A stretch of DNA of 52,411 bases from Candidatus Kapaibacterium sp. (lineage in GTDB: Bacteria > Bacteroidota > Ignavibacteria > Kapaibacteriales > WFXC01). The notes beneath the pieces are model-generated. The model did no database searches and was not told the origin of the DNA. It saw only the letters and a program-made list of their open reading frames with translations. Made by a program: the position numbers and the translations under genes. This document shows, one piece after another, positions 1,219 to 36,312 of the stretch. The stretch covers positions 1 to 52,411 of the forward strand of contig JALWJX010000065.1 in assembly GCA_026996895.1 (NCBI GenBank), in the 5' to 3' direction. The stretch's first letter is position 1, and every line of letters starts with the position of its first letter.

Positions 1219-1266
1219 TGTGTCTCTCCTTTCTTTGTTCCACTTCACCTACTTCGATAAATGCAC

Positions 1267-1303
1267 AGCAAGGGAATCCCCTTTTGACGGGAACTCCCTT
1301 GCT
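1267..1303 (-). terminator. Hairpin between hsp20 and dnaK
   Basis: Nine-base arms AGCAAGGGA (1267-1275) and TCCCTTGCT (1295-1303) are perfectly complementary, and inside them TCCC and GGGA can extend the stem. On the transcribed (minus) strand the stem is followed by an only weakly U-rich stretch, so it is either a leaky terminator that separates hsp20 from dnaK or an mRNA-processing or stability element. The arms do not match the CIRCE consensus. I infer the function from position only. Confidence 0.5.
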
Positions 1304-1329
1304 GCGAAAAGTTTGTTGAAAAGAATCGA

Positions 1330-1776: not shown

Positions 1777-1807
1777 CGCTCTGTCTCCTTTTTTGTTTAA
1801 CTTCCCT

Positions 1808-2242: not shown

Positions 2243-2556
2243 TCTTCCTTCCTTTTGGTTTGTCACACTTATTCATTGCGCTTCTCTATTTGGAAACTCC
2301 GTGCCAATTCCTGAGCAGGTGACAAAATGTACCCATTGCTGCCCCATTTGCACTTTCTTTCTCCGGCATCGATTGACGGAGCGTGACAATATGACACTCC
2401 CTGTTCCCTTCTGCTCTACCACCCGGATCCTCTGTGCTCCCGACCGGCAAGGTGCGGCTCTGTGTCGGGGACCTGCGCGATCCTCTATCGTCCACACACA
2501 ATCTCCCTGTGGTGAGCGTCTCTGGTGAAGGAAGTGCAACGAACTGGAAACCATTG
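2243..2556. promoter_or_regulatory. Divergent hsp20 / copA control region
   Basis: 314 bases without a convincing gene. They must hold the promoters of both the heat-shock block (minus) and copA (plus). Two modest dyads lie on the copA side: CCCGAC (2439-2444) with GTCGGG (2464-2469), and CCACA (2492-2496) with TGTGG (2508-2512). Either could be an operator or leader hairpin. No CIRCE repeat and no clear TAnnTTTG box were found. The copA frame stays open back to a GTG at 2434, but the added 41 residues do not resemble the family. Confidence 0.4.
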
Positions 2557-4881
2557 ATGGAAACAACAGCAACCAAAGAATCGCTATCCATAGAAAAAAT
2601 CATCCTGCCTGTCACCGGGATGTCGTGCGCCGGCTGTGCTGTCAGCATCGAATCGATGTTGAAGGCGCAAGAAGGGGTCTTTGCAGTGCAGGTCAACCTG
2701 AGTGATAACACGGTGTTGATTGAATACGATCCTGCGCAGATCACGCTTCCAGAGCTTCGAGACGTTGTTCGCAGCATCGGCTATGATCTGGTCCTTCCCG
2801 ACCAGCAGGCGCAACTGGAAGCAATCAAATCCTCCCGCAAAAAAGAGCTGCGTACAAAGCTGCTGGTTGGCATCGGGTGCAGCATACCCTTAGTGATCCT
2901 CTCAATGTTCATTCCCCCATTTCCCGCTTCACCCTGGATCCAGCTTTTTCTTGCCATCCCTGTGGTATTCTACACCGGCCAGGAGTTTTTCCGCAATAGC
3001 TGGAAACAGTTACGACACAAAACTGCCAATATGGATGTGTTAGTTGCTCTGGGTACGGGAAGTGCTTTTCTGCTGAGCCTTGCGGTGACACTCTTCCCCT
3101 CTTTTTTCGCTCAACTGGGCACCGGCGTCCACGTGTACTATGAAGCAGCAGCAGTGGTGATCACCTTAGTCCTTCTGGGGCGGTATCTGGAAGAAAACGC
3201 AAAGGAGCGCACAACAGATGCTATTCGCCGGCTCATAGAACTCCAGCCGCAATTTGCTCTGGTCGAACGGGACGGTCAGTGGGTCACGGTGCCCCTGCAA
3301 GCCGTGCATCCAGATGATAGGGTTTTAGTGCGTCAGGGCGAAAAAATTCCGGTCGACGGCACTGTGCTGGAAGGACAGGCAGCCGTTGATGAGAGTATGC
3401 TCACCGGCGAACCGCTCCCGGTAAACAAAGCGCCTGGCGATCCTGTGTTCAGTGGAACCATTGTACAGGACGGCACTTTGATCATCCGTGCTGAACAGGT
3501 CGGGGAGAAAACACTGCTGTCCCAGATCATCCACTTCGTCAAACAGGCACAGGCGCAGAAGCCACCGATTCAGCGTCTGGTCGACCGCATTGCGGCTGTC
3601 TTCGTCCCGATCGTCGTCGGCATTGCTCTGCTGACTTTCATCATCTGGCTCATCTGGGGACCATCCCCCTCGTGGCTGTTTGCCTTTACGGCTGCGGTCT
3701 CTGTTCTTGTCATTGCCTGTCCGTGCGCCCTGGGACTGGCAACGCCAACAGCACTGACTGTGGGCATTGGCAAAGCAGCCGAATACGGTATTTTGATCAA
3801 AAACATCGAGGCAATTGAGCACATTCGGACGATCGATACCATCGTTTTTGACAAAACCGGCACGATCACGCAAGGTGATCCTCAGGTTGTCGATGTGCTA
3901 TGGCTGATCGATGATCCAGCCCAGCAGCAGTTGTTGATTCAGCAGATCATTGCAGCGGAACAGCGATCCACTCATCCGCTGGCGCAGGCAATTTTGCATT
4001 TCTTCCAGCCCACCCATTCTCCCGATGGCATTGCGCCAGCCCAACTGGAAACGATTGCTGGCAAAGGACTTCGCGCCACCTTTGACAATACCATTCTTCT
4101 GCTGGGCAATGAACAACTCTTACGCGATGCTGGCATTTCGCTGCCATCTGCAGTGCACCAGTTTGTCAACTCCCATCGCCGGCAAGCACACACCCTGGTT
4201 TTCATCGTTGCCGATACAGTGATCCAGTGTGTCCTCGCCATTGCCGATCCTCCCAAACCCGAAGCAGCAGCGGTGGTACAATTTCTCCGATCCCGCGGCT
4301 ATCAGGTCATTCTGCTTACTGGCGATCATCAAACAGCGGCGGAAGCGCTGGCTCGCCACATTGGTTTCGATCAGGTCATCGCTGAAGTCTCTCCTTTAGA
4401 CAAAGGCACGGTCATCGCCCGATTGGAAGACACAGGGAAACGCACGTTGATGGTTGGCGACGGCATTAACGACGCACCAGCTTTAACAAAAGCAACGATC
4501 GGCGCAGCGATGGGTACCGGTACTGACGTTGCGATCGATGCAGCGGACATTGTCATCATCCGCGGCAATCTGGAAGCGCTGCCACATTTTCTGGCAATTG
4601 CCGAACGCACCGCTCGAACAATCAAAGAAAATCTGTTCTGGGCATTTGCCTACAACGTACTGGCAATTCCCATTGCTGCTGGAGCATTGTACCCGCTCAC
4701 AGGATGGCTGCTGAATCCAATGATCGCTGGCGCTGCAATGGCGCTGAGTTCGGTGTCTGTCGTGACGAACAGTCTGCGGCTCCGACGCTTCACTCCCCCA
4801 ACTGTGCTAAAACCTCATCGGGAGAGCGCGGCGGCACCACCAGCACCTGCTTCTCGCGATCCACAACCACTGCACCAGTAG
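2557..4881 (+). CDS. copA: Copper-exporting P1B-type ATPase
   Basis: 774-residue inner-membrane pump that exports Cu(I) at the expense of ATP. It has one N-terminal heavy-metal domain with GMSCAGC (Cys24, Cys27) and eight predicted membrane segments. The intramembrane metal site CPC is at about residues 388-390, in [16 protein letters not shown]. Further motifs are TGEP in the actuator domain, the phosphorylation motif DKTGT at Asp432, the P1B marker HP in [10 protein letters not shown], and [10 protein letters not shown] near 634. The last helices carry YN and MxxSS, the residues that mark Cu(I) transporters (P1B-1). I prefer the ATG at 2557 because the heavy-metal domain follows directly. 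The last ~30 residues are Pro/Ala-rich and are read antisense through the end of the convergent NFACT gene, so the normal stop seems lost. Confidence 0.95.
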
Positions 4882-13942: not shown

Positions 13943-16111
13943 ATGAAGACATTGCGATCGCAATTAACGATCATTTTCTTAGCTGTCTTCCTCCCATTGT
14001 TAGCCATTGTCATTGTCATCAGCTACCTCAATGCCAAGTCGACCATACACGATACGCTCATTCACACCTTAACCCTGACAGCAGAAGAGGAGATGAAAAC
14101 GCTCAACGCCCACTATCACTTCATCAACCGTAACGCAGAAGCTTTAGCCGCATTTCCTCCGCTGACCCACTACCTTCAACTGGTCGCAGAAGGGAAAGGA
14201 GGAACACCCGAAGCCCAGAGAGCCTTGCAATTAGCAGAAGCCCTCCTTTCGAGCTATCAGGAGCAACACTGGGGAATTTACCATCATATCTCGGTCGCTG
14301 ATCCCCAGGGAATCGTTATCATTGGTGTCCCCCATAACGGGAAGCCTTCGCCGCACGTTGGACATTCCATTGCAAACCTTCCTCAATTCAACGAAGCACT
14401 GATGCATCCGGTCTTGACCCCATTTTTCGGCTGGACCGAAGGCGATCATTTTCACCAGTTGTACCTTTATCCAATCAAAGACTCAGCAGGACAATCCCTT
14501 GGAATGTTGATGTTTGAAATCGAAATCGGCTACCTCAATCATCTCATTAGCGGCACCCAACCTGATAAAAACTCCAGCACTGTTCACAGTTATCTTCTCA
14601 CAGAAGATGGAACAGTCATTGTCCGGAACAAAACGGACTCAACAGCGAGCCACGTACCGGTTCAGCAGGTTCTTCAGGCTGGCACATACATTACACAATT
14701 CACAAACCCTGAAGGGGAAGAAATTATTGGCGTCTACCTTCACAATACAGAACATTTTCCCATCATTATCGCCGTTGAAGTTCCCACTTCAACGTTCTTT
14801 GCACCCATCCAGCAAACGCTTCGCTGGAACATTCTCCTGTTAATTATCAGTGCAATCATTGTTGGTCTGGTTGGCTGGGTCGTAGCACGCCGATTCTCTG
14901 TACCCATCCAGAATTTAGCTCAGGCAGCAACGCGGTTGGCAAAGAAAGATTACGGCGTGGAATTAGAGCAGCAAAGCTCGATAGAGGAAATCCAACAACT
15001 CCAACAAGCGTTTTCAGATATGATCAAGCATCTGCGGGAAGCAGAGGAGCGAGCACGGCAACTGCGGGAGCAAAGCATCGTGACCCTTGTCCGAGCAATG
15101 GAAGAATTTGCCAATGGCAACCTGGATATTCAGCTTCCAGAACACGCCGAAGATCCGGAAATGGAACGGCTCTACCAGTCGCTGAATCGAATGATTGAAC
15201 AATTCCGCCGCCTGCTGACAGCAGTTTATCAACAGGTCAGTCACCTATACAAAGTTTCCGGCGAACTTCAGAGCGTGTTTGAATCCATTCGCCAGTTTGC
15301 CGAGCAGCAGTCAATGGATGCAACCGATGTTGCTGCCGCCGCCGAGGAAATTACCCGCACCATTGCCTCCAATGCGCAAAATGCTGAAGAAGCATCAAAG
15401 CTTTCCCAGCACAATGGGGAAATTGCGAAGGAAGGTGAGCAGGTCGTAAAGGAAATGGTCGAACGAATGCAGGAAGTGGTGGGCTTCATCCAGAGTATTG
15501 CGAAAAAAGTAGAGCAATTGGGCAATTCTGTCTCCCAGATCAGCGCTATTACCTCGCTGATCAATGAAATTGCTGAACAAACAAACCTGCTTGCCCTCAA
15601 TGCTGCTATCGAAGCCGCACGTGCCGGTGAAGCGGGTCGAGGTTTTGCAGTGGTCGCAGACGAAGTCCGGAAATTAGCAGAACGCACGACCGAATCAACC
15701 CAACAAATTGCAGAAATGGTCAACACAATCCAGAAAGAAACACAAAGCACCGTGCAGCTCATTCACGAAGGAACTCAACAGGTCAACACTGTGCTGGAAT
15801 CCGCAGCCAATGCGAAAAATGCGCTGCGATCCACCCTCGAAAGCGCTCAACGTGTCGTGGATATGATCGCCCTCATCACCAACGCGCTGAAAGAAGAGCT
15901 GAGCGCCAGCGAGCAAATCGCTGCAAATATGGACAATGTAAAAGAAGTTGCTATCCACGTACAGAAATCGGTAGAGGAATTAGAACAAACAACCGATGAC
16001 TTAGTCCAAGCTGCTCGACAGTTAGAGCAGCTCCTGCAGCAGTTCCATATGCAGCAGCCGGCAGCGTTGCAGACACCGCCGCCGCAATTGCCAGACGGAC
16101 AATCTTCGTAA
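13943..16111 (+). CDS. Methyl-accepting chemotaxis protein with large extracytoplasmic sensor
   Basis: 722-residue inner-membrane receptor. TM1 is at about 8-28, an extracytoplasmic sensor of about 265 residues (probably dCache-like) follows, and TM2 is near 296-318 ([23 protein letters not shown]). A HAMP domain comes next ([22 protein letters not shown]), then a second HAMP-like segment ([21 protein letters not shown]...[16 protein letters not shown]). The long signalling hairpin has its tip at about 545: [38 protein letters not shown]. There is no C-terminal CheR-tethering pentapeptide. No che or motility gene is nearby, so it is an orphan receptor with its own promoter and terminator. The ligand is unknown. 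Confidence 0.94.
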
Positions 16112-22760: not shown

Positions 22761-25700
22761 TCAGGTGTTCTGCATTGCCTTTTCACGAAATGCTGCTGCC
22801 GCCTGGTGATCACCCTGCGCTTCAGCAACTTCTGCTAACCAGTGCCACGCTCGCTGATTCTGCGGATGCAATTGCACACTGAGAGACAACAACTGTCGCG
22901 CTTCATCGGGGCTTCCTGATTGAAAAAGCGCTGTGGCTGTATCCACCAACAGCGTGTCCAATCCGTAGCCCAACACTGAGCGAAACTTCCACACTTTCCA
23001 GTTATCCATCAATCGTTGCAATCGCCCCAAAGCCTCCTCCCAGTGTTGCCGACGCAACGCCTGTACAGCCCGGATGTATTCCGCATCTGGATGGTCTGGC
23101 GTTATATCCTCTACCTTTGCCAGAAACTCTTCGCACAATCGCTCTTCACCTTCCTCCAGGGACAGCCACGCCAGCCGAAGCAGCACCAGTTCCGCATACC
23201 GCACCGGCAATCCCCGCATTGTCAGTGCTGCTTCATACAACTGAATTGCCTCATCAATGGTACCCTGCTCCAATGCTTCTTCCGCCATTCCAACGGCAAT
23301 GATCGCATCTTCCCGGCTGCGCAGATACCGTCTGGCAATTCGGTGCAGATCAGTTCCAACCAATGCATCAATACGGGTCAACAGCTTCAACGTCGCTCGA
23401 TGCCACGTCCAGAACCGCCGCGCTCGCTGCGCTCCCATCACTCCCCGCAAAAATGCCTCGTGCGGTCGATCATAGAGCGTGTGCAAAATCTTCACCAGTG
23501 CTTCCTGATCCGGTTCCAGCACCCACGCAGTGCCAGTCAGCGGATGTCCATCGATGCGATCCCCAATTTCCCGGCGAACTGCGGGAATCTTCCATCCAAC
23601 GTGTTCATCTACAAAATCGTCGGTTGCTCCCCCTTCCGTAACAACGACTGCCAGCCCACACGCCATTGCTTCAAGGGTCGGCAACGAAAAGCCTTCGCCC
23701 CGATAAGGCATCACCAATGCCGTACAGGCACGATACAACTGCGCCATCTCTTCCGGTGACAGCGTCTGGTCAATGTAAAGCACTTCCGGCGCATTGGGCG
23801 TTTGCTGAAACTGCTGGATCAGTTGCTGTGCTGTCTGCCCTCGATAGAAGGAATCGCCTCCCATATCCTTGATCACCAGGACCACATCATCTGAAGCGGT
23901 AAAGGCTTTTGCATACGCAGCCAACAACACATCGATGCCTTTGCGGAAAATCGTTCCTCCAACATACAGCAATCGCAACCGCTTCTGCGTCGGCAACGGA
24001 TATGCATCTCCATACGGCGTGAATAATTGCGGATCGATCCCGTTAGGAATGACCTGTACCTGATCAAACGGCAATCCCGACCGTACCATCGCCTCCCGAG
24101 AAAATGTAGATGGAGTCCAGATTTCTACTGCTTTGGAAAAAAATTCGACAAAATCCCTGCGAAGATGAGAAAACTCCCACGGTTGCATAATCACCCATTT
24201 GCCAATCGGTGGTGCTTCTGCTTTGGGGGGCCACTGATGTCGCACCCAGACCGTTGGAACACCCTTCAACCGCTCCCAATCCACCGCTTTATTCCGCACA
24301 TCGCATCGCGCCAATTGCTCCAATGCCGGATCTCCTTCAGGTGCAAATTGATCTTGCTCGTACGGCACGACCGTCAACTCGACGCCGGGCACTTTGAGCA
24401 GATTCAAACAGTGCTGCCGGTTGATGAGTGCTAAGGAATGAGTAACAAATTGCGATCCTTCCCAGATTACGTGGAGCGCTGGCAAAGTCTCCTTTTCGTT
24501 CAGTGTCGGATCTGCCTGTTTTTCTCGCTCCTCCATCCCGTTCCCTGCGGTTGCCGTGCGAGTAGATACACGACTGGAAATCCCCTCATCGACACCTTCC
24601 GCTTCTGGATGCTGTTCGCTGCTTTCCTCGTTCTGAGAATGAGCAGCGTCGACCGGCTGCGGTACGACTTCCAGAGTAATGCGGCCGTCCGGGGTTTTCT
24701 GCCACTGAACGATGGTATAGCCACTCTCTGCTACTGCTTTGCGCAGCGCTGCTTCCGCTGATTCCGGATCCTCCGCGGATGAATGCTGTTCCAGCACTGG
24801 CTGCTGCTGCGGGTGAGCACCGACAACATCAACCCCATTCCACCACCGGGCATACGGCGGAAGCACTCCCTCCGGATCTTCCAACTCAAGGCGATGAGCA
24901 GGCTTCTGCAAAAACAAATGTTCGGCAATCACCCGCTCCGGATCCTGTCCGGCAGTCAGCCGAATCCGCTTCCCCGGCAATGGTGGCAGCGGCTGCACTC
25001 CATCGTGCACCATCTGCACAAAAGCCTTTGCGACCGTTTCAGGCGGTAACTGCACCATACACTCATTGCCACATTGCCGCTGCCAGTAGCATTCCAGACA
25101 GTCGAGCGATTCGTTGCGTACAAAAGCAAAGCCTGCATCCGGATTACCACTCAGCCACGGATTGGTCAGTCCACATATCAATAGCGTGGGTTTCTTCCAC
25201 AGATTATGCCCCACGTGGAAGAAAGCGCTGTCGATGGTCAAAAAGTGGGTACAGAAACGGCTCAGCGCCATCTGCTGCCGCAGCGAAAAACCAGCAGCGG
25301 CAGCATCCAGAATCCACGGCAATGCTTCGGACGACGGCAACGGCGCCGTACCAAAATGCAGAAACCGCGCTGCTGGAAACTGTTGATGCAACTGCTCCAG
25401 TACCTCCATCCCGTAGGGATAATTTCGCTTGTTAGGAACATTTTCTTTGTCGGAAATCAGATGGACACCCACCAGCATTGCAGGCTTTTGTCCCCACGCA
25501 TCCGTAATCTGTTGCGCCGCCCACGCTTCTTCTTCCGGCATCACCGTATACACAATCGCCTCGTACCGGAATGGAATTCCCGCCAGATTGCCAAAAATAT
25601 CCCGATAGCCAATGCCATTGTAATACTCCGGCAAACGGGCAATGATGTCGGTGTAGTCAATCACCTCATCGGCAACCACTTCCAGCGACACTGCGTCGGG

Positions 25701-28193
25701 ACTTTCAATATCCACAACCGCTACAATATCCGGATTGTGCAGAAAAATATCGCGGGTTCGCTCTTTACCGGCAACAAAAATCTGCAAATGCGGATACTGC
25801 TGTTTCAGCGTTCGCACAACACTGGTAATCGTTAATGTATCACCGAATGCATCGGTCGACTTGACCAGCACCGTCTTCGCTGCTGCATAATTTCGTTTCC
25901 AGAATCGCCGATTGAAACTGGTGATGAACGGCGACTCCGTTTTGCGTTGTGCCGTCTGTGGTGACCGAGTTTCTGCTGGCATCTGTTTCGGCACCAACTG
26001 ATTGCCCCGAATTTCAAAGCCATCTTCTGCAAAGAACTGCTCCATATCCCGCCGCACCACATCTCCCCATTTTTCAAAAAATCGTTCTCGATTGCGCCGC
26101 TCCTGCGGCGAAGCATCTGCAAAGCTGGCAACGCCCTGCTGCTCCCGCAACTTTTTGGTTACCGACTCATAGTGATACAGCACCGCTTTGGGTTGATAGA
26201 CCACCTGATACCCCTGTTGCTGCACCTTCATACAGAGATCGGCATCCTCCCAGCCAAAGACATACCCTTCGTCGAACCCACCAACCTGCTGGAACAGGTC
26301 GCGCCGAATCGCCAGACAGGCGCCGGTGACAAACTGCACAATACGCCGACGATTCACAAAAGGCGCATCGGGATCTGCCAGCAGGTAAACGTGGAACGGC
26401 TCTTCGGGACGTCCCGGCCGCGCGCCGAACACCATTCCTGCGTGCTGAATGCGGCCATTCCCATAGAGCAGTTTCGCTCCCACAATACCTACTTCTGGAT
26501 GATTCCGGAATTCTTCGAGGATCGCTTCCAGCCAGCCATCCAGCGGTTTTGTATCATTGTTCAGGAACACCAGCACTGCTCCCTTCGCCACCGCTGCTCC
26601 CTGATTATTCGCGCGGGCAAAACTTTCGTTCCGTTCATTGCGAATCAACACGATACGACCAGCCGCCGCCTCTTTCTGCAAGTATTCGGCCGTTTCCTGA
26701 TCGGAAGCATTATCCACGACAATCACTTCATACGCAACATTCCCCACCGTTTCGGGAATCGCTTCCAGACACTGCCGGGTGTAGGACAGGTTGTTGTGGA
26801 CGGGAATGATGATGGAAACGGTCGGCTGCATATCTGCTGGAGGCTGGTGTTGCCCTATTGCTCGATACCGCTCTGGAAGGAGGGTATCAATCCATTCGCA
26901 GATCGCCAAACTTTTTTCTTCCGCCGTTCGAACTTCCAAACGGTACTGTTCCCGAATTTGTACCGCCGCTTTGCGATACCGCTCCTGCTCTTGAGGATTC
27001 TGGATCAGTTGCTGGATCTGTCCCTTAAGCTCTTCTGATGACAGCGGCAACCGAATACATCCCTGTCGATAAAGTGGATTGCTGTCAATAATTTTGTCAG
27101 GATGGAACTTTTGCTCCAACAACCCTCGTTGCGGAAACAGAATGCCAGGAGTATCGACCACAAATGCTTCCCAGAGCACTGAGCCCAGATGTGGCGTTAC
27201 CAAGACATCTGCGGCTGCAATAATGTGATCCAACTGATTGGTAAACACTTTGAGCTCCTGAAGCCCTACCTTCGCAGCCGTTTTGAGGAAAAACTGTGTT
27301 ACTCGCTGTACAGTTGGTGTTTGCGTCAAGACAGGGTGAAGTTTCACGATAAACTGGGGAACAGGGTGCAATTTTTGTTGAAGTTCTGCGAACGTCTGCA
27401 AAATCTGCTGATATATTGCAATTTCTTCGAGCTTTCCTTGCACAATCGAGAATGGCAAATCAACTTCTACCCACGAACCTGCCAATGCAATCACAGGACG
27501 ATTCGGATCCAAGCCCAGTAACGTCCGCGCTTGTTCAGTGTGCAATTGCACTGGTGATGAAACATCATTCGGCGTTCCCAAACTCAGAAACTCAATGGGT
27601 TCTTTCGGACCCGACCGAAGATAATGAGCCTGCAAAATCTCTACTTCCAGAGCATTGTCGAAATTCACGAAATCGGAAAGAAAGCGAAAAGGAAGATGGG
27701 CTCCTTCGCGTAGTGCTGAGGGTCCCGGCATAATAGCGCCAAAACCGTGCTCAACATTTAGCGTAGGAATGCCCATTTGCTTCGCCACAATCGCTAAGGT
27801 TCGCTTAACCGTCCCAGAGTCTGAGGCTAACAACACTAAATCGATCGGTTGCCGCTCTACCACCTGCCGAAAGATCGATTCAATCTGCAAAGTCATTCGT
27901 GCGTGTACCTGAGCAAAATGCCGAAACCGCTCCGGTAACGAAACCGAAGGTTTTTTCAACACCTGTCCAAGGTGATCAGCAGTAAACTCCACGCACTCCT
28001 GAGTCAATCGCTCAATGTCCTCTGGAGCAATTGCAGGAATGCCCACAATATCCTCGGCAAATTCCACCAACAATTGCTGCTCCGTGAATACTTTCTCATT
28101 GCGAAAGGTAATGATGCGAAAGTATTCGGATAATATTCGAGCAAAAATTTTGTTGCGGTCTACAAATAACCCTGAAACAAAAATGGTTTTCAT
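22761..28193 (-). CDS. Giant multidomain glycosyltransferase (GT-B + GT2 + GT9 + GT4 + TPR)
   Basis: 1810 residues, no signal peptide or membrane span seen. Residues 1-455 are a GT-B-like domain resembling capsule or CDP-glycerol-type transferases (GIPTLNVEHGFGAIMPGPSA, FIVKLHPVL, ADVLVTPHLGSVLWEA). About 457-706 is a GT2 domain (VSIIIPVHNN, VVDNASD, FLNNDTKPLDGW, GWEDADLCMKV). About 769-1058 is a GT9 heptosyltransferase-like domain (KTVLVKSTDAFGDTLT, ICGLTNPWLSGN, a CxxC-x5-CxxxC cluster). An acidic, low-complexity linker spans about 1060-1235. About 1236-1597 is a GT4 domain (VIPNGIDPQLFTP, LLYVGGTIFRKGIDVLL, YRGEGFSLPTLEAMACGLAVVVTEGG). TPR-like repeats close it (1617-1810). It probably acts in the cytosol on a surface glycan or glycoprotein. 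The start overlaps the preceding gene by ATGA. Confidence 0.9.
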   Translation of the reverse strand: MKTIFVSGLFVDRNKIFARILSEYFRIITFRNEKVFTEQQLLVEFAEDIVGIPAIAPEDIERLTQECVEFTADHLGQVLKKPSVSLPERFRHFAQVHARMTLQIESIFRQVVERQPIDLVLLASDSGTVKRTLAIVAKQMGIPTLNVEHGFGAIMPGPSALREGAHLPFRFLSDFVNFDNALEVEILQAHYLRSGPKEPIEFLSLGTPNDVSSPVQLHTEQARTLLGLDPNRPVIALAGSWVEVDLPFSIVQGKLEEIAIYQQILQTFAELQQKLHPVPQFIVKLHPVLTQTPTVQRVTQFFLKTAAKVGLQELKVFTNQLDHIIAAADVLVTPHLGSVLWEAFVVDTPGILFPQRGLLEQKFHPDKIIDSNPLYRQGCIRLPLSSEELKGQIQQLIQNPQEQERYRKAAVQIREQYRLEVRTAEEKSLAICEWIDTLLPERYRAIGQHQPPADMQPTVSIIIPVHNNLSYTRQCLEAIPETVGNVAYEVIVVDNASDQETAEYLQKEAAAGRIVLIRNERNESFARANNQGAAVAKGAVLVFLNNDTKPLDGWLEAILEEFRNHPEVGIVGAKLLYGNGRIQHAGMVFGARPGRPEEPFHVYLLADPDAPFVNRRRIVQFVTGACLAIRRDLFQQVGGFDEGYVFGWEDADLCMKVQQQGYQVVYQPKAVLYHYESVTKKLREQQGVASFADASPQERRNRERFFEKWGDVVRRDMEQFFAEDGFEIRGNQLVPKQMPAETRSPQTAQRKTESPFITSFNRRFWKRNYAAAKTVLVKSTDAFGDTLTITSVVRTLKQQYPHLQIFVAGKERTRDIFLHNPDIVAVVDIESPDAVSLEVVADEVIDYTDIIARLPEYYNGIGYRDIFGNLAGIPFRYEAIVYTVMPEEEAWAAQQITDAWGQKPAMLVGVHLISDKENVPNKRNYPYGMEVLEQLHQQFPAARFLHFGTAPLPSSEALPWILDAAAAGFSLRQQMALSRFCTHFLTIDSAFFHVGHNLWKKPTLLICGLTNPWLSGNPDAGFAFVRNESLDCLECYWQRQCGNECMVQLPPETVAKAFVQMVHDGVQPLPPLPGKRIRLTAGQDPERVIAEHLFLQKPAHRLELEDPEGVLPPYARWWNGVDVVGAHPQQQPVLEQHSSAEDPESAEAALRKAVAESGYTIVQWQKTPDGRITLEVVPQPVDAAHSQNEESSEQHPEAEGVDEGISSRVSTRTATAGNGMEEREKQADPTLNEKETLPALHVIWEGSQFVTHSLALINRQHCLNLLKVPGVELTVVPYEQDQFAPEGDPALEQLARCDVRNKAVDWERLKGVPTVWVRHQWPPKAEAPPIGKWVIMQPWEFSHLRRDFVEFFSKAVEIWTPSTFSREAMVRSGLPFDQVQVIPNGIDPQLFTPYGDAYPLPTQKRLRLLYVGGTIFRKGIDVLLAAYAKAFTASDDVVLVIKDMGGDSFYRGQTAQQLIQQFQQTPNAPEVLYIDQTLSPEEMAQLYRACTALVMPYRGEGFSLPTLEAMACGLAVVVTEGGATDDFVDEHVGWKIPAVRREIGDRIDGHPLTGTAWVLEPDQEALVKILHTLYDRPHEAFLRGVMGAQRARRFWTWHRATLKLLTRIDALVGTDLHRIARRYLRSREDAIIAVGMAEEALEQGTIDEAIQLYEAALTMRGLPVRYAELVLLRLAWLSLEEGEERLCEEFLAKVEDITPDHPDAEYIRAVQALRRQHWEEALGRLQRLMDNWKVWKFRSVLGYGLDTLLVDTATALFQSGSPDEARQLLSLSVQLHPQNQRAWHWLAEVAEAQGDHQAAAAFREKAMQNT

Positions 28194-28927
28194 ACTGCTT
28201 CATCCTGAAGTTGTTGATGAAATTCCTCCAGAAGGAACTCGCTGTATTTGAACAAGTAGTCGATGTACGTGTATCGACACAATTGCGGGAACTCAATTCC
28301 CTGAATAGCATCCCGGTTGATGTCCGTATAGAGTTGCAACACTACTTGATCCAAACGTTCAATTTCCTCCAATGCTTCCTGATCGTAGGGATCAATGGCC
28401 TGTTGAATCAACTCCGAATCAAACTGCTGCCGTGCAAAACATACCGGACAGTAGTGTTCAGAGTATACCAACCAGGTTCGGTTCAGCACAAAGGAATACG
28501 AGGCGTGACAAGCAGAACATTCCAGGGCAAAATCGTACAGTCCTCCCCACTCTGCAAGTGCCTCGAAACCCTGTACGGTGACAGGATATAGAGGATCAAT
28601 CCGTTGATTCCGATAGTGCCGTACCCATTCTGCCGTAGAAGCAATGCGTTCAATGTCAATTGCTAAACTCCCACCGGCAAGATACAACCGAATGAGGCTT
28701 TCAGGCTCAAAATATTCGAGTACATCCACCTCCTGAGACTGAACCAACTGATAAAACCGCTCAGCTTCCTTCGGCTGGTCATTGAGCAACAACACCTTCG
28801 CTGCTTCTGCAAGTACCGTTGGATGATTTCCCAAATGTTTCGTTAGTTGCTGCACAAGTTGCCACGCCTCCGTGAGCTTCCGCTGCTTCCGCAAGGCAAC
28901 AAGGGTCGATATCGATACGGTTTCCAT
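28190..28927 (-). CDS. Helical-repeat protein with zinc-ribbon-like Cys pairs, coupled to the giant glycosyltransferase
   Basis: 245 residues, not assignable to a named family. Residues about 1-90 are TPR-like helices (TLVALRKQRKLTEAWQLVQQL, VLAEAAKVLLLNDQPKEAERFYQLV). The middle holds two Cys pairs, CSAC and CPVC, about 23 residues apart around a hydrophobic stretch, which suggests a zinc ribbon. The C terminus is acidic and helical (YDQEALEEIERLDQVVLQLY, YLFKYSEFLLEEFHQQL). The ATG at 28927 is chosen over an upstream open frame of unlikely composition. The stop and the glycosyltransferase start share ATGA, so the two are likely translated together and the product may be an adaptor or regulator of that enzyme. 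Confidence 0.7.
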   Translation of the reverse strand: METVSISTLVALRKQRKLTEAWQLVQQLTKHLGNHPTVLAEAAKVLLLNDQPKEAERFYQLVQSQEVDVLEYFEPESLIRLYLAGGSLAIDIERIASTAEWVRHYRNQRIDPLYPVTVQGFEALAEWGGLYDFALECSACHASYSFVLNRTWLVYSEHYCPVCFARQQFDSELIQQAIDPYDQEALEEIERLDQVVLQLYTDINRDAIQGIEFPQLCRYTYIDYLFKYSEFLLEEFHQQLQDEAV

Positions 28928-29072
28928 TGGAAATTCTCTACTTTTGTGCCTTTCCCTATTATCGATCAATTCCGCAGAAACTTGTTCCTCTTGCCCCCGG
29001 ATTATGGCGAAATTGTCCGCTCTCCAGCGTGCGCGAGCGGAAAATAGCTGCAAGTTGGTAGCAGCCTCGTTT

Positions 29073-29783
29073 TCAAAGATCACCCTGACCGGGTCGGAGG
29101 ATGAGCATTTCCGGGTGGGAATCAGCCGGTAACTGAAGCAGGGCAACAACCGCGCTGGCAACCGATGTCGGCGACATCATCTGCGCCTGATAGCGCTCCA
29201 GCACCTCCGACGACCAGATATCGGTCGCTGTTGCCCCCGGTAGTACATTGATCACCCGAATGCCTGCGGAGCGGACTTCCGCGCGTAATGCATCAGCAAA
29301 CATTTGCAACCCCGCCTTCGTAGCACCATACACGGTGGCGTGGCGGAAAGGAGTGACAGCAGCAACAGACAGAATGTTCACGATTGTTCCCTGCTTGCGT
29401 TCCAGCATCGAAGGCAACACCGCCGCGGTGCAATACATTGCCCCCAGCAAATTTACCGCTACCATCGCCTGCACCGCTTCCAGAGACAGCTCCGTAAACG
29501 GCTGGAAATTGCCAATGCCTGCGTTATTCACCAATCCCGTCGGGTGCCATCCTGCTGTCTCCATCTGTCGATACGCCTGCTGCACCTGCTGCGGATCGCT
29601 CACATCACACGGCACTACCATCGCCGCTGCTCCCAGCGTATCGGCAAGATGCTCCAATGTTTCAGTGGAGCGGGCGGAGAGCACGACCCGCGCCCCACAC
29701 CGAACCAGTTCCTCCGCAATCGCTCTCCCAATACCTCTGGAAGCACCCGTAATCCAGAACGTTTCTCCTGTAAGGCTCATCAT
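29073..29783 (-). CDS. Short-chain dehydrogenase/reductase
   Basis: 236-residue classical SDR. It has the cofactor motif TGASRGIG near the N terminus, the NNAG strand motif (LVNNAGIGNF) and Ser in NILSVAAVTP. YGATK (Tyr-x3-Lys) completes the catalytic set, and GIRVINVLPGATATDIW follows. An Arg two residues after the first glycine motif (SARS) suggests NADP(H) preference, which is an inference. The sequence is closest in feel to 3-ketoacyl-ACP or sepiapterin-type reductases, but the substrate cannot be read. It is transcribed away from the NTase-like gene. Confidence 0.88.
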   Translation of the reverse strand: MMSLTGETFWITGASRGIGRAIAEELVRCGARVVLSARSTETLEHLADTLGAAAMVVPCDVSDPQQVQQAYRQMETAGWHPTGLVNNAGIGNFQPFTELSLEAVQAMVAVNLLGAMYCTAAVLPSMLERKQGTIVNILSVAAVTPFRHATVYGATKAGLQMFADALRAEVRSAGIRVINVLPGATATDIWSSEVLERYQAQMMSPTSVASAVVALLQLPADSHPEMLILRPGQGDL

Positions 29784-29880
29784 CTCTGCCTATGCTCTTT
29801 TGCACATCCAGCTCAAATGTCTCCGTTCCACGATCGTCCCTTGCGGTCGCAAATTGTATGACAGCAACAATCATCGAACG

Positions 29881-30711
29881 ATGCCGATCACGCAGGAATT
29901 AGCAGACCTGACCTCCCATTTCCTCCATCTCCATCGCCGATTCACTCCTTCCGGCTCAAAACTGGCATTTGCTCGCTCACTGATGACATTTTTGCAGCAG
30001 CATCAGATAGACTTTGCCCTTTTCGGTTCCTATGCAACAGAAACCGCTATTCGGGATCGAAGTTCTGTCGACCTGCTGATCGCTACCCCTGACTCTCCAA
30101 CAACTGACCATTTCCTCACAACCCTCACCCAATTTGCGAATCAATCCTCTTTCCCTGTCCAGTGGGACCAAACGCACAATCGGATCACCATCACCGGTGG
30201 ACCGGCTGCGGAGCAATACCTGCACTGCTATCTTGTCCCCGGTTTTAATACGGCTGTAACACTACCGCTTCCAGACGGGCACACCGTCACCAGTTCCCCC
30301 CTCGCCCTGACGCAGCAGATCCAGGACCATCCCTTTCCCCACAGCCGAACCATTCTCCATCTGTTCAAACTCTGGCGACACCTCAAAAACATCCCCCTCC
30401 CTTCGGTCTATATGGACGCTCTGGGACTTGCAGCGATGGAATCTCTCCCACCCGATCTTCCACTGCCAGCGGCGATGCAGCAGGTCCTCCGATTCTGCGT
30501 CGAGCACAACCTCCAGCCAATCTCCCTGCCATCGCTCACCGCCGATCCTCTCACCCCCACACTTCCGGAATTCGCGCAGCAGACAGCCCGCAGGAAACTC
30601 CGCACCCTCGCCCGCCGCCTCGACCTGATCGACGAAGCAGCACAGAACGAGGACTTCGACCGCACATTCCAGTTGTGGAATCTCATCTTCACCGGCGCCC
30701 TGAGCCGGTAG
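29881..30711 (+). CDS. CD-NTase/OAS-fold nucleotidyltransferase-like protein, catalytic acids degenerate
   Basis: 276 residues with the outline of the cGAS/DncV/OAS superfamily. The helix-loop motif is FALFGSYATETAIRDRSSVDLLIAT (Gly49-Ser50), a strand near YLVPGF follows (115-122), and a C-terminal helical lobe holds RTILHLFKLWRHLKNIPLPSVYMDALGLAAM, like the K-x-W...K-S-Y-x-L-E block of these enzymes. The usual D-x-D is S62-V63-D64, so one acid is lost, and the third acid, three residues before Pro120, is Tyr117. Catalysis is therefore doubtful; it may be a sensor or scaffold. The ATG at 29881 follows a 97-base divergent gap, with no strong ribosome site. It ends nine bases before the end of the convergent giant ATPase gene. 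The assignment rests on motif shape only. Confidence 0.6.
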   Translation: MPITQELADLTSHFLHLHRRFTPSGSKLAFARSLMTFLQQHQIDFALFGSYATETAIRDRSSVDLLIATPDSPTTDHFLTTLTQFANQSSFPVQWDQTHNRITITGGPAAEQYLHCYLVPGFNTAVTLPLPDGHTVTSSPLALTQQIQDHPFPHSRTILHLFKLWRHLKNIPLPSVYMDALGLAAMESLPPDLPLPAAMQQVLRFCVEHNLQPISLPSLTADPLTPTLPEFAQQTARRKLRTLARRLDLIDEAAQNEDFDRTFQLWNLIFTGALSR

Positions 30712-30720
30712 AGAGACCCT

Positions 30721-33700
30721 TTAGCTATACTTTGAATCTCCGATTAGAACCTCCCGCAAATGGGGACGTACCAACTCTAAAAACCCTACTATTTCTTCTC
30801 GTGAAACATTCTGCAACATATCTCGTGTCGCATCGCTCCGCTGCAGAAATTCCAAAATGTGGGAATACGCCTTGCCCACCTGCATCCGCAACTGCTCTTC
30901 GCACCGATCCTTCTCTTTTTGCAGCGTCGGGTAATCTTTTGGCACTTCCTTCCCTTCATTGAAAAGGCGATAATACCCTGCTACTTTCTCTCTGAGCCGC
31001 CTAAAATGCTCTTCTCGTTTCTCCAGCCATCTCAATATAGATTCTGCCCCATCTTTTGGTAGGGAACTCAAAGGTACTTCCCACCCTTCCAACTGAGCCA
31101 TACGCTGTATAATTTGTTCCGCCTTTTCTTTTGAAATTGCTGTCACCCTGAATTGATACTTTCGCCATATACGTTCCACCTCGCTTGCAAATGAAAAATC
31201 AACGGCTTCCTGCTTCATCCACTCGCGTAGCATTTTTCCCACCGTTGGGAATTTCTGATCAAACTCCCTTTCGAGTTTCTGCAACTCCTGTTCCGCTTCT
31301 TTGTACGTTAGCTCTCCTGAGGATTCGGGTCTCTCAAGTACCTCCAGATATTGCTGAATTTCTTGCAACATCACTTTTTTCTTCGCTTGCAATTCTCGAT
31401 GCAGCTTTTCCAGCAACTCCTTGATCTCTTCAACTGCATTTTCTTTACCCCAAACTCCCTCTGGAAATTTTTCCTGAAATCGATTCACCACTTCCTCTTG
31501 CGTTTCTTCTGCCTCCAGTTCTCCCAATAATTCTGCAGCTTTCTTCAGCGCGTCGCTGGATTCTACAGTCGCAACTACCTGAGCACCGAACCACTGGTTG
31601 ATCGTTTGAAGACATTCTGCGACCCCCACGATCCACTGCTGATTTCCAATGTCCCAATCTTTGAGCAAGTGCTCCACCTGATCGGATGACAATCCCTCTA
31701 TCGCTGGAACTACTTCCTCTCTAATCCGCTGCACCTGCTGATAAACGAACGCTGCCGATCCCTGCTCGAACGCCTTTTTCAATACCAATGTATTAAGAGC
31801 TGCCCAATGCTCGGTCGACTGGTGAATGTTCTCTGCTGTTTTAAGAATCCGGTCTATATTCTGAAGATTGGCGTCTTGCTTAAACTCACGCTTCAGAAAC
31901 GCTATAAACGACTCTCCCAATCCTAAGTGCTCCCCTCGCTGTCGGAACTCTTCATACTTGGGGTTATCAATAGCTCGACGCAGGCGATCTTTGTAGCGTC
32001 GCAAATTACCATACGTCAACGCTTGATCGAATTTCGGAAGCGACATATCCGCTCCCCGCAGCAACTCTTCCTGTAATTGTTCGTACAGCGCCTCCAGCTC
32101 TTGTGCTCGCTGTTCCAGTGCTTCAAGCAACGACATAGTAGTGTCCACCATCCCCTTTCTCTGCTTCTGGTAGCGCCCAGTGTCTCCTTTCTCCACTTCT
32201 GTTGGACTTTCTGTCAATAATCCATTCTCTCGAAGCAAGGATTGGATCTTTTCTCCCTGCTGCACGATCCGATTCACTATCCTTTCCAAACTCACAATAT
32301 CTTTCTCCTTTTGACTTAACCACTCCTCTAACTGAAGAGTAAAATTACGCTCCCCATCTCCTGAAGCAAAGTCTCCATCCGCAACAATTTCCTTCGGTTG
32401 TACTATTAGCAATTCTCGTAATGTCTTGCTTTTACTTTTGTTCTCCTTTAGAAACTCCTGTAACAACGGATTCTCGCGAAACTTTTTGCCAATGTCCTCA
32501 GCCTTTTGCCTTGTTTCCTGCAATCGACTTTCAAACTCCAAAATCTTTTGCTGCAAATGATGCAATGCTTGGGAAAATCCCTGTTCCAATTCACTTCGCA
32601 CAAACAGAACCTCCATAAGATGGTGCAGTGCTTTTTCCTCGAACTCCAGCTCTGATAGCTGTTGCATCCATTGTATCCATTTGGGCTCGTCATCCGCCTG
32701 TCCTGAGGACAACGGAAAGATCTCTCCCTCTGAAATCCCTAATTGACCAGCAAGATGCTTTCGCTGTTTTTGCAACTCCTGCATCCGATAATAGATGGAA
32801 CGAAATTGTTGCAGAAGTTTCTCAAATTCCTGCCCGCTGCTAAAATACTGGCGCTCCAACCGCCAGGCTGCTTCCAGTAACCGCTTATCATTTTCAGAAG
32901 TTGCTAAACGACAAAAATCGTCTAAACCAACGTTTCGGATCAACTGCCGCAAAGCTGTGTACTTAGGCTCTGAAAAGAATAAGTTAACTTCCTGCAAATA
33001 CTTTGGTATTCTTTCCGAGGGAATGTAATCTATCAATGTTGAAATCCCTGGTCTTTGGAATAGTGGTTTAAAAACATCTTCCTTTTTCATTTCCTGAACA
33101 ATTCCTCGAAGTCTTATTAACCGCTCCCTGTCCTGAGAGGAAAGCTTCCCATCTTTGGTCAGCAACCCTAAAAGAAGTATCATAACAGCAATTTCTCGAT
33201 CTCTTAGGTAACCATCTCCCCAACATCGATCTTCACCTTCAAGCTTTTCCCTTCCCACAATGAAGTACCTCGGAGTAATTGAACTTTCAACCTCTTGAAG
33301 AATACCCTCAAGAGCAGCTCCATACAGCTCAAACTTTCGTCGCGCATAGTAATCCTCTGATGCTTGAAACCGATCTTTTAGATCTGCCCACCGCACGGGA
33401 ACTTCTCTTTGCGGCTCCCACACACTGAGCAAAAAACTTTCCAGTAAACCCTCTACTGGCTGGATTTGAAGCCGTCCATACTTTTTCAGCCAACCCAGCA
33501 ATAGCGGTCTGTTACCGTCATCTTTCCATCGTTGATACTCCGCTTTCGGCAACAGCAGGATCATCTTCTTTCCATCCGGCAACGTAGCATCCAAAAACTG
33601 GTGGGATTCGGTACTATACTGGACCATATCCTGATAGCGGACAAAGAACAGAAAATCTGTTCCACCGATCTTTCCGGCTATCAAAGGGCTCCCCGGCTTG

Positions 33701-35085
33701 CCATCTGCTTCCCATCGCTCTAACACCTGGCTCGGCGCAGTAAACAGCACAGGGTTTGCTATAGGGAACGGAAATATTTGTCCCACCTGTCCGATTTCAA
33801 TCGGTAGCTTTTTGGATAAATCACCCTCAAGAATTCCGCTTTTGCCGTCTAACTGTTTAGCAACCCGACTTTCGTTTTGTTTATCGATCGCCTCTGCTAA
33901 TAGGGGGATCTGGTCGAAATGGTCACGAATAGCCGGATCTTCATTGGCTTCAAAGATCATCAGATCCATTGCCAATTTGAAGAAATCCTTCAGTTCCGAG
34001 TCAGGAATGTAGGCAATCCGTTCCTCATCTGAAATCAGCAGTGCCAGCTTTCGAAGATAGTATGCAAATGCCGTTGCAATCTGCTCTTCTTGAATGCCAA
34101 ACAATTGTTGTAAGGGCTGAATAAGTTCGGCTTCTTGCAGCTCTTCGACGCGAATTTCTATCCCCCATGGCTGTCTCTCAAAATTTTGCGGTCGAAGATC
34201 TACAACGATGGGTCGATGTTCTCCTTTCACCCTTTCCAGTGTTACTGCGGGAACTTTATCAGCCGCTTTTCCGATAGGATCCAGATTTTGAAGAATCCGC
34301 TCCAACTCATACGGGGAGCGCAGCTGCTGATCCGTTACTTTCCGCAAGGTTTCAACGTTTTTAATGATGTTCCTCGGCACCCCTCGGGATAACCACCAGG
34401 CGGCATTTGCTTTGCCCGCAGGCAATCCATAATGGTCCCGAATGTACAATGGATCAACCGTGGGAATCAGAAAAATGCCCAATCGCTGGCGATCGGCGGT
34501 CCCCAGATCGTGAACACCCGCGGGGGTCAATGCTACAACTTTCAGATACTTTGAATCCTGCAACCATCCCCGCAACGGATCACCTCCAACATGCTCGACC
34601 AACTTCTGGTATACATCTTCCAACTCATCCACAAGCAGCACTAACCGGTCCGGATCCATCGTAGCATTCTCATAGAACTGTTGCATATCGGTTAAAACAT
34701 CCTGCGAAAATCCCTTCCAGAGCTCCACTTCCTCCCATCGTCTGTCCACAATTGCCTGTACGGCGCGCTGCACCTTTGTATCAACCCACTCCTTTAAATC
34801 TGCGTAATTCGTCGGCACCTTCTCTGCCGATGCGTCATCAGCTAAAAACAGCTTCGCCGCCATACTCAGTACCGGAAACAGCCCCATTTCTTTTGCCCGG
34901 CGAAAAAGGAAAAATAACAACGCACTTTTGCCCTGCCCATAAACTCCCTTGATCAGGTAAGCGTGGCGTTCCAGTCCTCCATCGCGATACTGTTGCAGAA
35001 TCTGCTCGAACTCCTCCTTCAACTCTGCATGCTTGGAGGACAAAACGTGCCACTCGCTACTTAGACGTGCTGTAAGAGCTTCCAT
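30721..35085 (-). CDS. Giant P-loop ATPase with long coiled-coil body (unclassified)
   Basis: 1454 residues, predicted cytosolic. The N-terminal ATPase domain has Walker A GVYGQGKS (47-54), Walker B RLVLLVDELED (Asp153-Glu154), a sensor-like KVVALTPAG near 190 and RGVPRNIIKN near 240. The style recalls ATPases such as BREX BrxD (DUF2791), but I cannot assign it. A mixed middle part follows to about 780. Then come several hundred residues of Glu/Lys/Gln-rich coiled coil, interrupted near 1000-1150, reminiscent of SMC- or dynamin-like stalks. Base composition differs from the neighbours: two 60-base stretches I counted (32281-32340, 32881-32940) are each 38% G+C, which suggests acquisition. It faces the NTase-like gene tail to tail. 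Confidence 0.75.
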   Translation of the reverse strand: MEALTARLSSEWHVLSSKHAELKEEFEQILQQYRDGGLERHAYLIKGVYGQGKSALLFFLFRRAKEMGLFPVLSMAAKLFLADDASAEKVPTNYADLKEWVDTKVQRAVQAIVDRRWEEVELWKGFSQDVLTDMQQFYENATMDPDRLVLLVDELEDVYQKLVEHVGGDPLRGWLQDSKYLKVVALTPAGVHDLGTADRQRLGIFLIPTVDPLYIRDHYGLPAGKANAAWWLSRGVPRNIIKNVETLRKVTDQQLRSPYELERILQNLDPIGKAADKVPAVTLERVKGEHRPIVVDLRPQNFERQPWGIEIRVEELQEAELIQPLQQLFGIQEEQIATAFAYYLRKLALLISDEERIAYIPDSELKDFFKLAMDLMIFEANEDPAIRDHFDQIPLLAEAIDKQNESRVAKQLDGKSGILEGDLSKKLPIEIGQVGQIFPFPIANPVLFTAPSQVLERWEADGKPGSPLIAGKIGGTDFLFFVRYQDMVQYSTESHQFLDATLPDGKKMILLLPKAEYQRWKDDGNRPLLLGWLKKYGRLQIQPVEGLLESFLLSVWEPQREVPVRWADLKDRFQASEDYYARRKFELYGAALEGILQEVESSITPRYFIVGREKLEGEDRCWGDGYLRDREIAVMILLLGLLTKDGKLSSQDRERLIRLRGIVQEMKKEDVFKPLFQRPGISTLIDYIPSERIPKYLQEVNLFFSEPKYTALRQLIRNVGLDDFCRLATSENDKRLLEAAWRLERQYFSSGQEFEKLLQQFRSIYYRMQELQKQRKHLAGQLGISEGEIFPLSSGQADDEPKWIQWMQQLSELEFEEKALHHLMEVLFVRSELEQGFSQALHHLQQKILEFESRLQETRQKAEDIGKKFRENPLLQEFLKENKSKSKTLRELLIVQPKEIVADGDFASGDGERNFTLQLEEWLSQKEKDIVSLERIVNRIVQQGEKIQSLLRENGLLTESPTEVEKGDTGRYQKQRKGMVDTTMSLLEALEQRAQELEALYEQLQEELLRGADMSLPKFDQALTYGNLRRYKDRLRRAIDNPKYEEFRQRGEHLGLGESFIAFLKREFKQDANLQNIDRILKTAENIHQSTEHWAALNTLVLKKAFEQGSAAFVYQQVQRIREEVVPAIEGLSSDQVEHLLKDWDIGNQQWIVGVAECLQTINQWFGAQVVATVESSDALKKAAELLGELEAEETQEEVVNRFQEKFPEGVWGKENAVEEIKELLEKLHRELQAKKKVMLQEIQQYLEVLERPESSGELTYKEAEQELQKLEREFDQKFPTVGKMLREWMKQEAVDFSFASEVERIWRKYQFRVTAISKEKAEQIIQRMAQLEGWEVPLSSLPKDGAESILRWLEKREEHFRRLREKVAGYYRLFNEGKEVPKDYPTLQKEKDRCEEQLRMQVGKAYSHILEFLQRSDATRDMLQNVSREEIVGFLELVRPHLREVLIGDSKYS

Positions 35086-35174
35086 CGTTGTCGTTCGACT
35101 TTAATTGAACTTACCAGTCACTACTTTTAAGCAATTCTACGACTTGTCCTCATCATAGCACATTCAGCGAACTC

Positions 35175-35194
35175 TTTTGAGAAGGTTCTCAAAA
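35175..35194. promoter_or_regulatory. Palindromic operator-like site upstream of the giant ATPase
   Basis: TTTTGAGAAGGTTCTCAAAA has nine-base perfect arms around GG. It lies in the 258-base divergent gap between the ATPase gene (start 35085) and sucD (start 35344). A two-base centre is too tight for a stable hairpin, so a dimeric repressor site is the likelier reading. A second small palindrome, GTCGTTCGAC at 35090-35099, sits just upstream of the ATPase start codon. Confidence 0.45.
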
Positions 35195-35296
35195 TCCGTA
35201 GCGAGAATAAATTTTCTTTGGCAATCCTTCGGTAGCACAATAGATTCGCACTCCTTGCCGAATTGGAAACCCGCTTCCCATCTGTGGAACTTTTCG

Positions 35297-35304
35297 TACT
35301 TTTG
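35297..35304 (+). promoter_or_regulatory. Bacteroidota-type -7 box of sucD
   Basis: TACTTTTG fits TAnnTTTG and lies 39 bases before the sucD ATG. No -33 TTG at the standard distance was found. Confidence 0.35.
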
Positions 35305-35343
35305 TAGTTTCGCGTTTTGAGTACAACAAAGCTCTGGAGATGG

Positions 35344-36312
35344 ATGAGCATCTTAGTCAATGCGGGTACGCGGGTGCTGGTGCAGGGGATTACCGGGAAG
35401 GAAGGAACTTTTCACTCTGCCCAGATGCTGGAGTATGGCACCAACATCGTCGCCGGGGTTACGCCGGGCAAAGGGGGCACTGAATATCAGGGAGATGAAG
35501 CGAATCCATTTCCGAAACCAGTGCCAATTTTCAATACGGTTCAAGAAGCAGTCGATGCCACCCATCCGGATGCTTCCATCATTTTCGTTCCCCCTGCTTT
35601 TGCCGCTGATGCGCTGCACGAAGCAATTGAAGCAGAAATTCCCCTGATCATCTGCATCACCGAAGGCATCCCTGTCCGAGATATGACGAAAGTCTACGAC
35701 GCTCTGAAGCATTCCAGATCGCGACTTATCGGACCGAACTGCCCAGGAGTGATCACACCAGGCGAAACGAAATTAGGCATTATGCCGGGCTTCATCCACC
35801 AGCCCGGTCCCGTTGGCGTCGTCTCCCGCAGCGGAACGCTGACTTACGAAGCGGTGTTCCAGTTGAGTTCGCTGGGTATCGGACAATCCACGTGCGTTGG
35901 CATCGGCGGTGACCCAATTGTCGGCTCGCAGTTTGTGGACATCATCAAATTGTTCAACAAAGATCCTCAAACAGAAGTCATTTTGATGATCGGTGAAATT
36001 GGCGGCACTGCTGAAGAAGAAGCGGCTGCCTACATCAAACGGTATGTCAAAAAGCCGGTGGTAGGGTTCATCGCCGGTCGCACTGCTCCACCGGGGCGGC
36101 GGATGGGACACGCAGGCGCTATTATCGCTGGCGGCGAAGGGACCGCTGAATCAAAAATCACCGCAATGGAAGCCGCCGGCATTACTGTTGTTCCCTCCCC
36201 CGCCGATATTGGTGAAACGGTCAAAGCGGTGTTGAACCAGCAGAAAGCATCAGCGAAGAAATCGGCAAAATCGAAAAAGAAATCGGCAAAAACCAGTAGC
36301 AAAAAGAAGTAG
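35344..36312 (+). CDS. sucD: Succinate-CoA ligase (ADP/GDP-forming) subunit alpha
   Basis: 322 residues. The alpha subunit binds CoA and carries the phosphohistidine in the TCA-cycle reaction succinyl-CoA + NDP + Pi to succinate + CoA + NTP. It has the CoA-binding Rossmann motif [45 protein letters not shown] and the active-site block [10 protein letters not shown] with His256. The ATG at 35344 has GGAGA just upstream and gives the family start [15 protein letters not shown]. After the normal end near residue 297 there is a tail of about 25 residues made almost only of Lys, Ser and Ala, histone-H1-like and not part of the usual enzyme. sucC is not in the window. ndk follows after 22 bases. 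Confidence 0.95.

Follow-up and report, generated by a model that had tools for sequence, protein, structure and literature searches.

The window, by which we mean the whole analysed stretch of 52,411 nucleotides from a Candidatus Kapaibacterium genome, contains a single uninterrupted reading frame of 1810 residues at positions 22761–28193. It begins with an ATG, has no internal stop codon and lies on the minus strand; the initial annotation, which gave no strand, had read one fused protein of this length here, and this was confirmed. It starts with module A, which is GT-B-like on weak evidence; GT2 and GT4 modules flanking a divergent GT9 come next, and a TPR tail made of helices ends the chain. 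The features of the region are the following:

22761–28193, minus strand: fused glycosyltransferase protein, 1810 aa, from the ATG at 28193 to the stop codon at 22761–22763; same frame in the related genome G001
22764–23306, minus strand: C-terminal TPR-like helical solenoid, residues ~1630–1810; TPR_19, TPR_16 and TPR_14 over their cut-offs
23307–24518, minus strand: GT4 core, residues ~1226–1629, conserved family-wide; PF00534, 22-sequence alignment, AlphaFold model
24774–25958, minus strand: divergent GT9 module, residues 746–1140; FGDTLT, DSAFFH and a Cys cluster; homologues with PF01075
25959–26840, minus strand: GT2 module, residues 452–745; PF00535 at 3e-23; FLNNDT and GWEDADLC
26859–28193, minus strand: module A, residues 1–445, GT-B-like, part of the exchangeable cassette; PF00534 below cut-off, MurG
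26820–28955, minus strand: exchangeable cassette, comprising the small upstream gene and module A to residue ~458; blastn, junction read-out
28190–28927, minus strand: small upstream gene, 245 aa if translation begins at the Met at 28927 (323 aa in the frame list, which uses a TTG), overlapping the start of the large gene

An assembly error joining genes that are separate in relatives, a possibility raised along with the initial annotation, can be ruled out, because the same-genus genome G001 carries the same frame with identical architecture (1810 aa, 95% protein identity, 93.8% DNA identity over the region). A further genome of the genus, G002, maintains an open frame of 2461 aa across a different N-terminus. 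Promoter and terminator scans returned fewer sites than in shuffled sequences, and no tandem repeats were present at 28000–36000 of the window.

All module assignments except the N-terminal one are far beyond chance, and for GT2, GT4 and the TPR tail, as initially annotated, the Pfam matches all exceed the curated cut-offs. The GT2 module matches PF00535 with 83.0 bits (cut-off 23.3) at residues 460–636 and carries the motifs FLNNDT (543–548) and GWEDADLC (647–654); its matches in the PDB are chondroitin synthase and GalNAc-transferases. PF00534 scores 82.9 bits (cut-off 26.4), with the best stretch at 1404–1536, the GT4 halves spanning 1309–1601 and the motif EGFSLPTLE at 1500–1508. TPR_19 reaches 38.5 bits over two stretches, the better one at 1756–1802.

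Judged by its sequence relatives, the stretch 746–1140 is a divergent GT9 module. The mid-chain GT9-like part that had been read from the motifs is thus borne out, yet it is divergent, as the 1810-aa protein has no curated Pfam match to GT9 (PF01075). Taken in isolation, the module matches the heptosyltransferase III family TIGR02201 (1.9e-7) and RfaQ (4.7e-6), both far below the curated cut-offs. A profile of eight homologues of the module found the GT9 structure 3tov (1.3e-5) and heptosyltransferase II, 1psw (3e-5), the former covering the N-terminal and the latter the C-terminal half, so that the homology extends over both halves of the fold. PF01075 is matched by the homologue in G022 (7.8e-4) and by the GT9 stretch within the core-bearing protein of G025 (1.1e-14). 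The FGDTLT motif is found at residues 783–788, and the four cysteines of the cluster (CLECYW, CGNECM) are invariant in 8/8 aligned modules. ADP-heptose is a possible donor for this module; an HldE-like kinase match in the window's genome, at most suggestive in this respect, scores 334.2 bits, below the cut-off of 345. The viral contigs searched contained no relatives of the GT9 module.

Module A is weakly supported as GT-B-like. Its PF00534 match of 23.2 bits at 261–410 stays below the cut-off of 26.4 and covers the C-terminal half of a GT-B fold; in addition there is a weak match to MurG (0.0099). The GT-B-like module initially annotated here is hence weakly backed, by a sub-threshold match to the C-domain, with no match for the N-terminal half. 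No sequence match to module A was found in the PDB, and no relatives in the viral contigs or plasmids searched.

The GT4 module and the TPR tail together form the last 585 residues, which we term the core. An alignment of 22 core sequences, 36–96% identical to the window, has nearly invariant GT4 motifs. Structure prediction, proposed as a check with the initial annotation, gave for the core (13 sequences, mean pLDDT 90.2, pTM 0.89) a GT-B enzyme with a series of antiparallel helices behind it (core residues ~405–583), while the single-sequence AlphaFold model of module A (pLDDT 38) was unusable. The GT4 part of the core model superimposes on HepE (4xsp; Z 32.4, rmsd 3.0, 327 aligned residues), GlgM (6tvp; Z 32.0) and Campylobacter PglA (8dvz; Z 31.3), entries within one Z unit being regarded as tied. 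The matches listed in this search span mostly model residues 13–389 and barely cover the TPR tail.

To define the family, the 22-sequence profile was run on 123 genomes of the order with a threshold of E ≤ 1e-70. The core was found in 69 genomes at E ≤ 1.1e-73, far apart from the best non-core match (2.7e-13); any GT4 match at E ≤ 0.001 is present in 120 of the 123. The core-bearing frames comprise 12 of less than 750 aa, 21 of 750–999, 21 of 1000–1999 and 15 of at least 2000 aa with a maximum of 3664 aa, lengths that may be cut by contig ends; the two shortest, of 438 and 439 aa, appear to be truncated. In family f4, seven genomes have the core nearly alone, in frames of 593–672 aa, and GT4+TPR is therefore the invariant unit; in four of these seven, a separate long frame of the genome has a GT9-like module at its end. 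Ahead of the core, several GT2 modules are found in G002, G011 and G022, and extra GT4 and methyltransferase modules in G011, G017, G009, G024 and G025; GT9 accompanies the core in G022, G025 and G035. Hence, the GT4+TPR core is an order-wide family with varying GT2, GT4, GT9 and methyltransferase fusions.

The search for the same architecture in other genomes that had been suggested initially was thus positive: the whole protein recurs in G001, and the GT2-GT9-GT4-TPR block in G002 (97% identity over 458–1810) and, with the same module order, in G022 of another family (46–50% identity). The view that GT9, GT2 and GT4 in one frame are unusual holds in part: it has to be tempered by these two blocks and by the GT9 and GT4 core combinations of G025 and G035. 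The modules share folds and motifs with the families PF00534, PF00535 and PF01075, the GT9 module scoring below the family cut-offs; to our knowledge, known GT4, GT2 and GT9 members are mostly one- or two-domain enzymes. Plasmid records related to the core (88, all with less than 60% identity and none covering 80%) were rejected as generic GT4. Two further frames deserve mention. The core of G004 is split over two overlapping frames of 2294 and 428 aa (L060, 1856–9999), by a frameshift or a sequencing error, and in G020 a frame of 3744 aa (L061, 1497–12728) codes for several GT2 domains but lacks the core, and is thus another giant glycosyltransferase protein of the order.

The N-terminal part of the gene differs between the close relatives as a block. 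Where the window has 2136 bases (26820–28955), G002 has a non-matching block of 3363 bases (L039, 5730–9092), with flanks that are 96.4% (5733 bases) and 96.9% (7404 bases) identical to the window. The block of G002 codes for a different GT-B-like part of ~520 residues and for two GT2 domains. One junction coincides with the beginning of the GT2-coding part (residue ~459, VSIIIPVHNN); the other closely precedes the start codon of the small upstream gene, so that the leader is conserved. Neither cassette was found in the genome of the other type among the matches listed. G001 is of the window type though it is more distant (93.8%), and the simplest account is therefore that the block was replaced in the lineage of G002; two exchanges are also possible. 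A chimeric G002 contig is less likely, as the frame is kept, both flanks match the window and neither cassette turned up in the other type among the matches listed. The GC content is 47.6% in the window block, 54.1% in the shared rest of the gene and 49.5% in the upstream flank, and thus gives no clear sign of a foreign origin of the block. The upstream 245-aa protein has two CxxC pairs and a weak TPR-like match. Among the genomes searched, the pair of upstream gene and module A occurs in three only (G000, the window's own genome, G001 and, as remote homologues, G007). The small gene of G007 adjoins a module A homologue of 28% identity, and this pair is not fused to the core; module A is accompanied by the small protein in all three.

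The occurrence of the core was then compared with that of flagellin (PF00669). Of the 123 genomes, 69 have the core and 78 flagellin; 68 have both, one (G076) the core only, ten flagellin only and 44 neither. The unstratified Fisher test gives 1.8e-22, a value inflated by relatedness and strongly weighted by family f2 (23 genomes with neither). The 103 genomes that are at least 90% complete divide similarly into 61 with both, one with the core only, six with flagellin only and 35 with neither. When the core labels were shuffled within the ten families, the observed 68 compared with a mean of 60.6 (p 5e-5, the lowest value that 20,000 shuffles can give); within genera, the mean was 66.2 (p 0.045), and at this level the association with flagellin is marginal. 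Core and flagellin are lost concordantly inside genera g22 and g46. A first sample of 41 genomes, a subset of the 123, had flagellin in 24/24 core genomes and the core in 0/14 flagellin-free ones. Flagellin without the core was found in G005, G015, G029, G041, G079, G081, G087, G104, G107 and G114, six of them at least 90% complete. The nearly complete genomes G005, G015, G029 and G041 may leave their flagellin unmodified or handle it otherwise.

The window's contig carries no flagellin; the matches of its own genome lie on contigs C40, C60 and C106. Linkage within Kapabacteria is weak: of the 23 Kapabacterial core loci retrieved, a single one (G007) has a flagellin gene nearby, at a distance of 5.4 kb from the core, with adenylosuccinate lyase and aldehyde dehydrogenase genes in between. 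A scan of named genomes added 80 loci among the matches listed. No flagellar gene lies within 10 kb in any of the four records assigned to Kapabacteria or 'Ignavibacteria' with a full core (L100–L103), while flagellar filament or hook genes do so in 5/16 of the non-Kapabacterial loci (L104–L119, 32–47% identity), compared with 0/60 weaker GT4 loci (one-sided Fisher 2.4e-4, among the matches listed; flank lengths differ between the loci compared, and several of the 16 are short contigs). The flanks were searched with 13 seeds at E 1e-4, 12 of which came from the five linked loci and one from G007; with these, 11/16 non-Kapabacterial loci showed no flagellar gene. By Pfam, the five neighbourhoods contain FlgK and a Flagellin_N protein (L104, Verrucomicrobia MAG), flagellin, FliD and FliS (L105, Desulfacinum infernum, and L113, Sulfobacillus MAG), flagellins directly upstream (L106, Verrucomicrobia MAG), and FlgI, FlgK and FliW directly upstream (L107, Verrucomicrobia MAG). 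Upstream of flagellin, FliD and FliS in L105 (3723–13310), a methyltransferase+GT4+sulfotransferase protein and a sulfotransferase-like+GT2+GT4 protein are encoded, which suggests a sulfated, methylated flagellar glycan at that locus. In D. infernum DSM 9756, a cultured strain, GT2-GT4 and GT4-GT4 proteins are encoded next to flagellin. L104 has a 1544-residue open frame filled with TPRs (2–4633) directly before a GT4-GT4 protein, near FlgK.

The co-occurrence and the neighbourhood in other phyla therefore make flagellin the likely acceptor protein, and we consider it probable that the 1810-aa protein is a cytoplasmic multi-module O-glycosyltransferase with exchangeable modules, which acts on flagellin ahead of its export. 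The TPR solenoid at the C-terminus would grip flagellin, and the adjacent GT4 module, judging from its conservation, would most likely be the priming enzyme that attaches the initial sugar to the protein. Extension of the chain would then fall to GT9, GT2 and module A, the order of addition and the sugars being likewise putative. If the N-terminal end serves as an exchangeable cassette, close relatives would therefore share the inner glycan and differ in its outer part. The location of the invariant part beside the TPR tail and of the variable part distal to it is consistent with such an inner-constant, outer-variable glycan. The single-protein assembly line of the initial annotation stands insofar as four glycosyltransferases and a TPR tail are joined in one protein, while the defined oligosaccharide that it would build on a TPR-bound protein is conjectural, flagellin now being the probable substrate.

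A similar combination is found in FlmG of Caulobacter crescentus. According to the available part of the report, its TPR part binds the flagellins and is needed for glycosylation, and the soluble enzyme modifies them before assembly (PMC7591256). FlmG thus likewise joins TPR and GT-B parts, both of them needed, in one soluble flagellin O-glycosyltransferase; it differs in its size of 596 aa, its one GT domain, its N-terminal TPR and the transfer of pseudaminic acid, as far as described there (PMC7591256). The 1810-aa protein, compared with FlmG by description, has TPR and glycosyltransferase parts in the same chain and a core that accompanies flagellin in 68/69 core genomes, whereas it has neither the N-terminal TPR nor the single GT, the TPR being C-terminal after several GT modules. 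For type B flagellin of Clostridioides difficile, the accessible portion of the study describes a stepwise glycan made by the separate proteins GT1, GT2 and GT3 beside fliC, with the GT2 protein containing PF00535 and the methyltransferase PF08241 and adding two rhamnoses (PMC5207246). Methyltransferase modules occur in the Kapabacterial fusions too; a GT9 or a GT4+TPR core is not reported in that portion (PMC5207246). By analogy, the steps of flagellin glycosylation would here be fused in one protein. In searches of the open-licence literature, we found no account of a comparable multi-GT fusion linked to flagellin, nor of the Kapabacterial family.

Some of the modules could be catalytically dead, leaving a protein that adds one or two sugars only or acts mainly as a regulator like the moonlighting flagellin glycosyltransferase GmaR of Listeria monocytogenes. 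The accessible part of the GmaR paper describes 637 aa with an N-terminal GT adding GlcNAc, a linker and an antirepressor domain, and thus a flagellin-modifying protein that joins GT, TPR and antirepressor domains and, different from the protein here, has a single GT domain (PMC9638930). Module A and GT9 are divergent, which would fit such a loss of activity. However, the motifs that we take to be expected for GT2, GT9 and GT4 are intact, those of GT4 nearly invariant in the 22 sequences, and we regard this explanation as unlikely. Somewhat less probably, the protein could work on a lipid carrier, as other multi-domain glycosyltransferases do, and make exopolysaccharide, capsule or the O-antigen of LPS, with the TPR tail as a scaffold for other enzymes. 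GT2, GT4 and GT9 modules are all related to LPS and EPS synthesis, many of the matched GT4 structures are lipid or polysaccharide enzymes, and no flagellar operon lies beside the gene in the window. Flagellin-free genomes are expected to need envelope polysaccharides too, but 44/45 of them lack the core while having generic GT4 and GT2 matches; together with the flagellar neighbourhood in three other phyla, this makes a role in envelope synthesis quite improbable. Glycosylation of another surface or motility protein co-inherited with flagella (pilin, S-layer, adhesin or chemoreceptor) appears very unlikely: the co-occurrence speaks for a link with the motile lifestyle rather than with flagellin as such, the window contains an MCP gene (13943–16111) and a TPR tail suits a protein acceptor in general, yet at three loci (L105, L106 and L113) the neighbouring genes are those of flagellin, joined at L105 and L113 by FliD and FliS.

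For the preferred role in stepwise flagellin glycosylation, diversification of the glycans becomes testable, as the inner glycan is predicted to be common to both cassette types and the outer one to differ between them. More tentatively, and with considerable doubt on our side, the domain order might be a readable code, in which the TPR tail holds flagellin, GT4 adds the linkage sugar and each module towards the N-terminus the next sugar outward, and cassette swaps at GT2 starts change the outer glycan in one recombination step with the inner part kept. If this were true, changes in a single gene could create new surface types of the flagellum, for instance as a defence against phages or grazers, and the flagellar glycan sequence of an uncultured group could be predicted from the module order of one gene. 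Near-identical genomes differing by one cassette would be directly comparable, and the protein would offer a natural scaffold with swappable parts on which soluble proteins could be glycosylated in several steps.

Two further frames of the window were noted. A 487-aa frame at 29248–30711 on the plus strand has no NCBIfam match and overlaps an opposite short-chain dehydrogenase gene (29073–29783); it may not be a gene. On the minus strand, 30721–35085 codes for a protein of 1454 aa whose single match, to AAA_16, stays below the cut-off; its homologue in G001 has 1587 aa, so that the length varies within the genus.
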